Source: Bacteroidaceae bacterium
Lineage (GTDB): Bacteria > Bacteroidota > Bacteroidia > Bacteroidales > Bacteroidaceae
Reading direction: 5' to 3'
NCBI GenBank assembly: GCA_017557005.1
Contig: JAFZFZ010000020.1
Coordinates: 62,001 to 126,000 of the forward strand
DNA length: 64,000 bases
Positions 39,289 to 47,680 of the stretch are shown piece after piece. Position numbers and translations under genes: made by a program. The stretch's first letter is position 1. Each line of letters opens with the position of its first letter. The notes under the pieces were generated by a model. That model saw only the letters and a program-made list of their open reading frames with translations. It made no database searches and was not told the DNA's origin.

Positions 39289-39666
39289 TTTTAATTTGCA
39301 ACTTTGTTGCGACTTAATTTATTGTCAATAATCAACTGACAATGCTGAATTTATTTTGTCAACAGAACTTAAACGGAATTTAGACGCGTTTACGCACGTG
39401 CAAGCTTGTGCTGGGCCTCCGGGATGCTATCATTTAATCTCACACAGAAAACACGGAAAGCACAGAAAGGCACGACGCTACGCCCGTGCGGCCTCCGGGA
39501 TGTTTGCTTGTTTTGACCACAGATTGCACGGATTACACAGATTTTTGTAAGTTGCTGCGCTCTTACAGCCTCCTGATGGTACACGCGAGTTTACGATGCG
39601 ACAAATTTCAGTGATTTCTGTGATTTCCGTGTGACCTACCTATAGAAAGAACAGAAAGCACAGAAT
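39289..39666. repeat. Intergenic mosaic of dispersed modules
   Basis: Copies of the tcaacagaacttaaacgg ... ggcctccggg module (39357-39424), ctcacacagaaaacacgg ... gcccgtgcggcctccggg (39437-39503), ttttgaccacagattgcacg ... ctcttacagcc (39509-39567) and gatgcgacaaatttcagtg ... gtgtgacc (39594-39638). Open frames here are not genes. Confidence 0.82.
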
Positions 39667-41831: not shown

Positions 41832-42357
41832 TTTTATATTAGTTTTTTCTCACAGAAAATATGTTTCATTTCACGCGTAATCTCACGCAGAATTTTTTAT
41901 CTCACACAGAATTTTGTATCTACACAAAACAATCAACGCTAACTGGTTTTGAATTCACAGAATACGCACACGCAGGCTTGTGCTGCCATCCGGATGGGAC
42001 ACGCGAGTTTACGATGCGACAAATTTCAGTGATTTCTGTGATTTCTGTGTGAACTATCTAATGAAAGTCAGAATTTTTCTATCAACAGAACTAAGACTCG
42101 AATTTAGACACGTTTACGCAAATCGCTGCGCTCTTGCTAACCTCCGGGATGCTATCATTTAATCTCACACAGAAAGCACGGAAAGCACAGAAAGGCACGA
42201 CGCTACGCCCGTGCGGGCCTCCGGAGTGGTATCAATTGTCTCACGCAGACTTCACAGAATACGCACACGCTTCGCTTGTGCTGGCCAAGACAGCCAAGGC
42301 TGAACGAAAACGATGACGTTGACGAAGACGAAGACTTTCTTTAGTGGAGCTAGTTCT
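41832..42357. repeat. Intergenic mosaic of dispersed modules
   Basis: ctcacacagaattttg words, an acgcacacgcaggcttgtgc module with CCATCCGGATGG (41986-41997), the gatgcgacaaatttcagtg ... gtgtgaac module (42010-42055), tcaacagaactaagactcg ... cctccggg (42082-42148), a cagaaagcacgg ... gcccgtgcggg module (42162-42230) and an AACGATGACG run. No gene. Confidence 0.85.
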
Positions 42358-45174: not shown

Positions 45175-45877
45175 ACAAAAGACGCACACGCAGGCTTGTG
45201 CTAGCCATCCGGGGGGGGGGGGATTGGCTGTTGGCTCTTGGCTATTAGCTTTTGGCTGCCATCCGGATGAATCGTATAATCTCACACAGAAACGAAGTTC
45301 GCTGGCCGAAGGGAAAAGCAAAGCACGGAAAGCACAGAAATTTATTCGTGAGATTCGTGAGATTCGTGGTCAAGAAAATTAAACGCAGATGATATGTTTA
45401 TTTGAACACGAATCACACAAATTGCACGAATCTGGCACGACGCTGCGCCCGTGCGGCCTCCGGGATGATTGCTTTTAATCTCACGCAGACTTCGCAGAAG
45501 ACGCAGACTATAAGAACTTTAATAGACAATCAACGTGCGCTGGATACAAATACGCAGAATACGCACACGCAGGCTTGTGCTAGCCATCCGGATGGGACAC
45601 GCGAGTTTACGATGCGACCAATTTCCGTGATTTCTGTGATTTCTGTGTGAACTACCTAAATAACCGTGTGTTCGTGTGGAATCGTGTTGATGATATAACT
45701 TTGTCAACGCGAACTTAGACGGAACTTAGACACGTTAACGCACACGCAGGCTTGTGCTGACCTCCGGATGGGACACGCGAGCGATGTGTCGTGGGACTCG
45801 CCAAAGGCTTCGTACTCCTTTGGGACCCTAAAGGCTCCGTCGTCGCAACCGACGCTTTCATACCGCGTCGGTCTGTG
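45175..45877. repeat. Intergenic mosaic upstream of the IS110 element
   Basis: Copies of most families: cgcacacgcaggcttgtgc with ccatccggggg (45183-45225), CCATCCGGATGA, aacgaagttcgctggccg (45291-45318; also in clpB), attcgtgagattcgtgag, ggcacgacgctgcgcccg, CCATCCGGATGG (45584-45595), gatgcgaccaatttccgtg ... gtgtgaactacc (45607-45655), tcaacgcgaacttagacgg ... acctccggatgg (45702-45775), and the small palindromic element copy B (about 45790-45872). Open frames here are not genes. Confidence 0.82.
45790..45872. repeat. Small palindromic element, copy B
   Basis: actcctttgggaccctaaagg ... ccgtcgtcgcaaccgacg, then ctttcataccgcgtcgg; CCGACGC/GCGTCGG form a 7-bp stem. It directly abuts the left end of the IS110 element. 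Confidence 0.7.
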
Positions 45878-45894
45878 ATTTCCTTTAGATTTGT

Positions 45895-46115
45895 AGAGTA
45901 AAAACAAAGGTAGAAAAAAATCCCTACCTTTGTAAGAGTTAACCAAAGGAGAGAGGTGAACTAGTGTGTTTTCTAGCCTCATGAGCTATGCACGGAAACA
46001 GTCCTCTTCTCCTTTCCGTTGAACGGAAGAGCCAACTATATTTGTAGGTTCAAAGACCTAATAAAGGATTCAGTTAGTTCAACTCCCGGTTAACAAAAAC
46101 TTATAACAATGCAAA
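45895..46115 (+). ncRNA. Candidate IS110 bridge RNA
   Basis: The 220-nt non-coding left end before the recombinase, where IS110-group bridge RNAs are encoded. It has a 10-bp perfect hairpin ACAAAGGTAG/CTACCTTTGT (45904-45933), CTAG-tgtgtttt-CTAG (45961-45976), a CTCTT...CCGTTGAACGG...AAGAG stem (46004-46030) and TAGGT/ACCTA (46035-46050). The segment CACGGAAA (45991-45998) is complementary, with at most one G-T wobble, to TTTCTGTG or TTTCCGTG of the target repeat, making it a possible target guide. Expression and loop assignment are inferred. Confidence 0.6.
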
Positions 46116-46118
46116 GAT

Positions 46119-47123
46119 ATGGAAAAAGATCATTACATCGGAGTGGACATCTCAAAAAGAACGATTGATGTGGCAATTTATGTCAAGAACCAGGTAAAGA
46201 AGGGTGCCTTCCCTCATGAAACCTTCTCGAATTCTGAAGATGGATTCAAGGATATGAAGAGATGGTTGCGCAAGCAAAATACTGTTCTCTCCAAGTCTCT
46301 ATTCTGCATGGAGGCCACAGGAAACTACACATACGAACTCTGTCTTTTCCTTGAGCAGCAGAGTGTGGATTACTCGATACAAAGTCCCCTCCACCTGAAA
46401 CGATCTTTCGGTTTGACGCACGGAAAGAATGACAAGATTGACGCCTCTCGTATTGCTTATTATGCCTATCTTCACCGTGAAGACATCAAACTTACCAAGC
46501 TGGCATCTGAAAGCGTTCGCAAGCTAAAATCCTTAATTGCAGAGAGAAAGAGCTTTGTTGTAGAGATTGCACGCTGCAAGGCACAACTCAAAGAAGCTGG
46601 AGAGAATGCCCCAAGCCCAGGTACTGTCAAGCGCACAGAAGCCCTGCAACTATTCCTCGAGAGTCAGGTTGAAGCTATCGAAGATGAAATGGCCCAGACC
46701 ATAGAGACCGATGAGCAGATGAGGACCAATTACAATCTGCTGCTATCTGTTGACGGCATAGGTGTTGTCAATGCCATCAATACGATAATAGCTACCCATA
46801 ACTTTGAAATGTTTGATAACGCTAGACAGTATGCAAGCTATATCGGAGTGGCTCCATTTGAGCACACATCAGGAACCAGTGTAAGAGGTCGGACACATGT
46901 CGAGCCTGGAGCCAAGATGCTAAAAGCAGACTTGACTGGTGCCGTAAGATCATGTATAAATCACGACAAGGAAATCAGAAAATACTATGAACGAAAGATT
47001 GCAGAAGGAAAAGCTTATGGGGTTGTAGCAAATGCCATTAAGTTCAAGCTCTTGCTACGAATGTTTGCCGTAATAAAGCGCGGGACGCCTTTTGTAAGGA
47101 AACCTGACTTCATTTATTCATAA
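46119..47123 (+). CDS. IS110-family recombinase/transposase
   Basis: 334 residues. The N-terminal RuvC-like DEDD domain has YIGVDISKRTIDVAI (D10), CMEATGNYTYEL (E) and GKNDKIDASRIAYYA (D, D). The C-terminal Transposase_20 domain has LLSVDGIGVVNAINTI and YIGVAPFEHTSGTSVRGRTHV with the conserved serine. It uses a bridge RNA to recombine DNA without target duplication. The gene is intact, so the element may be active. Confidence 0.93.
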   Translation: MEKDHYIGVDISKRTIDVAIYVKNQVKKGAFPHETFSNSEDGFKDMKRWLRKQNTVLSKSLFCMEATGNYTYELCLFLEQQSVDYSIQSPLHLKRSFGLTHGKNDKIDASRIAYYAYLHREDIKLTKLASESVRKLKSLIAERKSFVVEIARCKAQLKEAGENAPSPGTVKRTEALQLFLESQVEAIEDEMAQTIETDEQMRTNYNLLLSVDGIGVVNAINTIIATHNFEMFDNARQYASYIGVAPFEHTSGTSVRGRTHVEPGAKMLKADLTGAVRSCINHDKEIRKYYERKIAEGKAYGVVANAIKFKLLLRMFAVIKRGTPFVRKPDFIYS

Positions 47124-47168
47124 ATAGTAAAAATAATAGCAAATTTATTTGGAGATATCCTATATTTC

Positions 47169-47680
47169 TGTGTGAACTACCTAAATAACCGTGTTTTCGT
47201 GTGGAATCGGGTTGATAGTTAAATTCGTGAGATTCGTGAGATTCGTGGTCAAACAGAAACAGCTGTTAGTTATTATGACTAAACAAAATTACTAAGTTTT
47301 TTAACTTACCTACACAATAATCTATTTTATCCCGCGTTTATGAATAACGTATGCGCGTGGATAGCCGCTGGCGGTGAAAGCACGCGGGGCGTGCGGTGAA
47401 AGCCACGGAGTGGCGGTTAAAGTGCCTTTGGCACGGTTAAGGGTTAAGGGTTAGAGACCGTAGACCGTTGACGATAACGTTGACGATAACGAAAACGAAA
47501 ACCTCCATCCGGATGGCCTGACCGTTGACCGTAGACTGTTGACGATAACGATGACGAAGACGAAGAAAAATACCACCTCCCCCTTACAGGGTACTCCTCC
47601 TAATTTAGGAGGAGAAATTAACCTGCTGGATGGAGACCGTTGACCGTAGACCGTTGACCATTGACAGTTGACAAAATGAA
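47169..47680. repeat. Intergenic mosaic upstream of sprA
   Basis: The remainder of the target module, attcgtgagattcgtg (47222-47255), hairpins GCACGCGGGGCGTGC, GCCACGGAGTGGC and GTGCCTTTGGCAC (47372-47436), an aacgataacgttgacg run, CCATCCGGATGG (47502-47513) with gttgaccgtagac words, and a ccacctcccccttacagg ... taggaggag module (47570-47619). No gene; the start of sprA follows. Confidence 0.82.
47570..47619 (+). repeat. CTCCTCC palindrome module, left copy
   Basis: ataccacctcccccttacag through a perfect CTCCTCCTAATTTAGGAGGAG palindrome with one asymmetry. An inverted copy is at 63438-63484, so the pair brackets the sprA-clpB block. Confidence 0.75.

Follow-up and report, generated by a model that had tools for sequence, protein, structure and literature searches.

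Does the insertion sequence (IS) at positions 45881 to 47168 of the window (the whole 64,000-nt stretch of Bacteroidaceae DNA analysed here) carry an RNA that guides it to its target? A first-pass annotation had proposed that it does, reading the left end as an IS110 bridge RNA with four hairpins and a guide, CACGGAAA, complementary to TTTCTGTG at the insertion site. The bridge RNA reading is supported by covariation of guides and targets, both among close copies and in distant relatives. We put the probability at roughly 95% that the locus is an IS110-group IS with a left-end bridge RNA whose predicted target guides track its own insertion sites.

An IS110-group element with a TC core

The ends of the element were defined by aligning 29 junctions (13 left and 16 right) from seven Bacteroidaceae MAGs. 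The left junction reads xTC/CTTTAGATTTG and the right junction CCTATATTTC/variable, the slash marking the junction; since both x and the right flank vary across junctions, the core is TC. A CT core was dropped because it predicts the left junction GATTTCTTTAG, whereas GATTTCCTTTAG is seen. The element is thus about 1.29 kb long on the + strand and is flanked by TC core copies at 45881-45882 and 47167-47168. This core is shared by target and donor without other target duplication, as judged from the 29 junctions and from one insertion (left end L058, right end L035) compared with its empty copies. By the junction alignment, 236 nt of non-coding sequence precede the gene and about 45 nt (<50 nt) follow it, the long-left, short-right layout of the IS110 group.

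The recombinase combines a DEDD RuvC-like domain (PF01548) with a C-terminal PF02371 domain that has a conserved serine. In end-to-end alignments with proteins of the PDB it matched ISCro4 (3e-22) and IS621 (9e-21), and the alignment, which spans D, E, DxxD and SGxS, retains the equivalents of IS621 D11, E60, D102, D105 and S241, residues with described catalytic roles (PMC11208158). Neighbouring genes encode a family 4 glycosyltransferase (PF00953; 43512-44696, - strand) and a SprA-type secretion/motility protein (PF14349; 47681-55021, + strand).

In its own genome, a MAG (about 83% complete) of an uncultured gut bacterium, the window element is the sole copy. DNA and pattern searches of Bacteroidaceae found the same element in G002, G012, G261, G431 (= G505), G433 and G438, and most copies sit at contig ends because assemblies break at multi-copy elements. 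No relatives were found in the plasmid collection or, by pattern scan, in IMG/VR. A weak left-end-like covariance-model match in G012 (L048, E 0.04) was put aside as a diverged relic, and L055 and L061 as chance matches to the left-end motif. At L029 (G002:C36) two element right ends face each other, lying within some 40 bases, each beside CTGCGTGAG, with no element between them.

A conserved structured RNA with two internal loops

The left end folds at -63.5 kcal/mol (z = -4.8), and 0/200 shuffled sequences were as stable. It contains at least four hairpins, in agreement with the earlier count, and forms a conserved structure with two internal loops (Table 1). The true 5' end of the predicted bridge RNA probably lies some bases inside 45883. 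An Rfam scan of the window returned no matching family. RNAalifold on eight left ends lost the donor stem (two of the sequences are truncated) and misaligned the window copy in its 5' stem-loop; helices were therefore counted by hand. Covariation inside the RNA itself is slight among copies that are 92% identical; one pair of the donor-stem cap is altered on both sides (G-C in three copies, A-U in four). The target-binding stem holds a large internal loop and is capped by pairing of TAGC (45974-45977) with GCTA (45985-45988). The relative L100 carries an equal closing stem, GTTAACC...GGTTAACC.

Table 1. Features of the element, its predicted bridge RNA and its targets (all + strand).
Feature	Position	Basis or remark
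Predicted bridge RNA region, ~212 nt	45883..46094	fold z -4.8; covariance model R1 matches 4 untrained relatives
5' stem-loop ACAAAGGTAG...CTACCTTTGT	45904..45933	fold and hand helix count
Closing stem GTTAACC/GGTTAAC	45938..45944 with 46088-46094	7/7 pairs intact in six copies reaching the 3' arm
Target-binding stem	45947..46013	lower helix 45947-45956 with 46003-46013
Predicted left target guide GTGTGTTTTC, 10 nt	45964..45973	5' side of first loop; permutation and relatives matrix
Predicted right target guide TGCACG+GA (6 nt + core-pairing GA)	45989..45996	3' side of first loop
Middle hairpin TTCCGT-TGA-ACGGAA	46014..46028	hand helix count
Predicted left donor guide CTATATTT	46036..46043	same sequence as element right end CCTATATTTC
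Donor-binding stem cap TAGGT...ACCTA	46045..46060	hand helix count
Predicted right donor guide TAAAGGA	46062..46068	complementary to TCCTTTA at left end
Left target, half of host repeat	45873..45880	junction alignment, guide permutation
Right target TGTGTG, other repeat half	47169..47174	repeat runs on to ~47216
IS110 recombinase, 334 aa	46119..47123	PF01548 3e-23, PF02371 2e-16 (Pfam)
Predicted -7 box TAGATTTG	45886..45893	formed when ends join in circle
Predicted -33 box TTTG	47148..47151	element right end
Unoccupied target CTGTGATTTCTGTGTG, identical to occupied site	45634..45649	others 42036; 39618 and 40245 (T to C)

In the first loop of the window copy, the left guide agrees with the left target TGTGATTTC at 8 of its last 9 bases; at the right junction, the right guide pairs with TC-TGTGTG. 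This pairing is imperfect, with one left mismatch in 9 and two or three G.U pairs at the right target. The match on which the first-pass annotation had rested, CACGGAAA at 45991-45998 with one G.U to TTTCTGTG, is present as described, and most of it falls within the right guide; the annotation had thus located the right target guide, whereas the left guide and both donor guides had escaped it. Its proposed extent also holds in part: it overlaps the predicted functional guide, but it includes two A's beyond the core that pair with left-target bases. Homology places the guide loop where the annotation had put it, although just the 3' half had been seen. By itself the 8-mer is at chance level. 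An equally good match to the 25-nt target arose in 37.5% of dinucleotide-shuffled left ends, and 33% of random 24-mers from the window found one in the real left end. The 8-mer therefore says little alone, and its meaning comes only from relatives. A strongly structured RNA, together with an 8-nt match seen in 37% of shuffled left ends, would also fit an RNA that only regulates the recombinase, as a leader or an antisense, with a coincidental resemblance to the target.

Guides and targets change together among close copies

We compared guides and targets among the close copies, using for the left side the 12 left ends with guide and left target on the same contig. Own pairs scored 67.5 against a shuffled mean of 53.8 (permutation, P = 3e-5), and with one copy per distinct guide the difference persisted (n = 7, P = 0.0014). 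Four left guides are identical to their own left targets: TGTGTCATC (L059), TGTGGAATC (L052), TTTTGTCATC (L053) and AGTGTCATC (L046). On the right side, P was 1.6e-4 over 14 copies and 0.022 over 9 distinct pairs; right guides AAAACA, TACGCA and AACACA accompany right targets TGTTTC, TGCGTG and TGTGTG, respectively. Both permutations count copies as independent though the copies are related. Because assemblies break inside the element, right ends were assigned to guides mostly by genome membership, a weaker basis than the same contig; the ends in G433 and G431 could be paired since a left end (L058/L053) and a right end (L035/L039) are common to both genomes. Thus both the left and the right guide of the first loop covary with the target. 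The earlier annotation would have been contradicted by copies lying in unrelated sequence, and the flanks of the other copies instead match their own guides, with two exceptions (L042 and L047).

The donor guides, in the second loop, match the element ends and are invariant among close copies, and hence provide no covariation evidence there. Reading of the donor by the second loop is accordingly less strongly shown, by complementarity, and stays a prediction.

The same correspondence in distant relatives

A covariance model (R1) built from eight left ends detected an RNA upstream of four recombinases that are 42-47% identical to that of the window (L102, L005, L100 and L101; rough E 1e-15 to 7e-8), none of which was in the training set. 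The left guide equals the outside flank exactly in L005 (CCCCATTGC) and L101 (TACTGATTC); guide and flank are AGGTGCTGC and GGGTGCTGC in L100, and AGCGAAGTA and AGCGAAGCC in L102. The four relatives match their own flanks at 8, 9, 9 and 7 of 9 positions, and in a five-by-five table of guides and targets own pairs scored 8, 8, 9, 9 and 7 of 9 and cross pairs at most 4. In L100, right guide TTCCGC lies opposite GCGGAA and donor guide TAAAAGC opposite GCTTTTA, with GC as the core; the change from TC to GC in this relative is tracked by its predicted guides, and the core change in L100 and L005 by the right donor guide. Right targets of L005, L101 and L102 were sought and none was placed with confidence. 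The left end of L101 (L101:1010-1500) is about 490 nt long, and a 65-aa reading frame with no Pfam match separates the element start from the bridge RNA.

Comparison across copies and species shows both predicted target guides tracking their own insertion sites. A purely regulatory RNA does not account for guides and targets that change together, in close copies and distant relatives alike, at exactly those positions of the loop in which near-identical copies differ, and we regard it as highly improbable.

The host repeat offers further predicted targets

The target of the window copy belongs to a host repeat. The repeat unit GTGATTTCTGTGTG occurs 12 times in the window with at most two mismatches (0.42 expected), which bears out the earlier remark that the target recurs. 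Unoccupied copies are exact at 42038 and 45636, carry one T>C change at 39620 and 40247, and include three one-mismatch copies on the other strand. Over 53 nt, the right flank of the occupied site shares 96% identity with 45639-45691. When all 125,396 positions of the element-free window were scored for guide pairing, the occupied site ranked 17; thus 16 unoccupied positions equal or exceed it in pairing, and further copies of the repeat account for many of them. Besides the occupied site, the genome holds 8 exact TGTGATTTCYGTG sites, 7 of them on the element's own 145-kb contig, and the reversed pattern of this target does not occur in the genome. The suggestion that further insertion sites are available therefore holds as a prediction. 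Between 39400 and 45700, both strands carry a dense cluster of related repeats in intergenic DNA, made up of GTGNTTTCYGTGTG and longer modules (53-85 nt).

A recoded copy in an inverted-repeat element

One insertion could be compared with empty sites. The flanks of L058 and L035, when joined, match continuously a repeat of about 172 bp with inverted-repeat ends, and they meet without gap or gain relative to empty copies. The repeat occurs in many genomes of genus g11, where empty copies mostly read TTTTTGTCATCTGTTTCGTC; the two target guides of L058, TTTTGTCATC and AAAACAGA, match the consensus TTTTGTCATC/TGTTT of contiguous empty copies. This dispersed repeat (L072-L088, around locus position 1501), the target of one IS copy, is MITE-like, with inverted ends CCCAAATCGGTCATTAG...CTAATGACCGATTTGGG.

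In the same genome, L052 is identical to L058 at 131/134 positions outside the loop, and its guide is TTGTGGAATC at site CTGTGGAATC. As the loop differs and the remainder is near-identical, the loop was recoded while the rest stayed. This pair also bears on the idea that the protein alone reads the target and that the loop resembles it through past capture of flanking DNA. All close targets do share a T/C-rich core region and the recombinases are conserved, yet same-genome copies with a 131/134 identical backbone use different targets that match their own loops. Furthermore, the right guide is complementary to its target, not identical, which capture would not yield. We consider protein-only reading with capture even less probable than a regulator-only RNA.

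Two copies with donor-like left targets

The exceptional copies L042 and L047 match their own left guides at only 2/10 left-target positions each. Their left targets, CCTATATTTC (L042) and CCTACACTTC (L047), instead resemble the element right end, with 8/8 and 6/8 non-core matches; only 0.012% and 0.53%, respectively, of random TC-ending 10-mers match as well. Donor-like sites were also among the off-target insertions of IS621 in E. coli (PMC11208160), and insertion of these two copies under guidance of the donor-binding loop is therefore a reasonable reading, although we hold it tentatively, for two cases judged from the left halves of their sites. It would add to bridge-RNA targeting by the first loop and not compete with it. 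A search for empty sites of L042 and L047 found none. L042 lies at a contig end with left flank ...GTACCTATATTTC, and L047, with left flank ...GTTCCTACACTTC, lies within a reading frame.

Two features are less ordinary than the rest of the system: the guide was recoded between near-identical copies of a single genome, and two copies have a donor-like left target. It is possible, though we would not bet on it, that fast recoding of the target loop gives near-identical copies in a genome different repeat families as targets, including a MITE-like one, and that the donor loop sometimes inserts at donor-like sites. If so, selection for host repeats that are abundant and harmless would drive natural retargeting.

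A predicted promoter at the joined ends and a model for insertion

TTTG-N20-TAGATTTG was present in 15/15 reconstructed right-left junctions. Bacteroidota promoters have TTTG near -33 and TAnnTTTG at -7 (PMC7366714), and the joined ends would therefore form a predicted promoter of this type, split by insertion as in IS621. From IS621 we infer circle formation and transcription of this promoter: the element would leave as a circle, its joined ends would make the promoter, and the transcribed RNA would be bound by the recombinase. The left guide (10 nt) in the first loop would then read the left half of the target while the right guide (6 nt plus core) complements the right half, and the second loop, with CTATATTT and TAAAGGA, would read the element's own joined ends. 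Recombination at the TC core would insert the element into a dispersed intergenic repeat, which in the window is GTGNTTTCYGTGTG.

On evolutionary evidence alone, these findings point to uncultured Bacteroidota as hosts of bridge-RNA targeting. The core is TC or GC, the predicted promoter is of the Bacteroidota type, and the comparison supplies a series of natural guide-target pairs. Near-identical copies with recoded loops amount to natural reprogramming experiments. They could help to explain how a guide changes and what leads the elements to settle in intergenic repeats.

Comparison with known systems

The closest parallel is IS621 of E. coli, also of the IS110 group (PMC11208160, PMC11208158). 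Both elements share the recombinase domains and catalytic residues, the order of 5' stem-loop, target loop and donor loop in a left-end RNA, a left guide in the same sense as the top strand and a right guide complementary to it, a promoter at the joined ends (predicted here), and a dispersed host repeat as target (REP in E. coli). However, sequence similarity to IS621 is only remote (E 9e-21), the core is TC here (GC in relatives) and CT in IS621, the closing stem GTTAACC/GGTTAAC and the middle hairpin are extra here, the promoter is of Bacteroidota type and not sigma-70-type, and the host repeat differs. The ISCro4 transposase (PDB 9t56; 3e-22) is the best match by sequence among solved structures, a comparison made at the protein level. 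The IS1111 group has the same recombinase family but carries its RNA in the right end (PMC11208160), whereas here it lies in the left end. Taken together, these comparisons place the element among the bridge-RNA recombinases, a recently described kind to which it adds one new and ordinary member.
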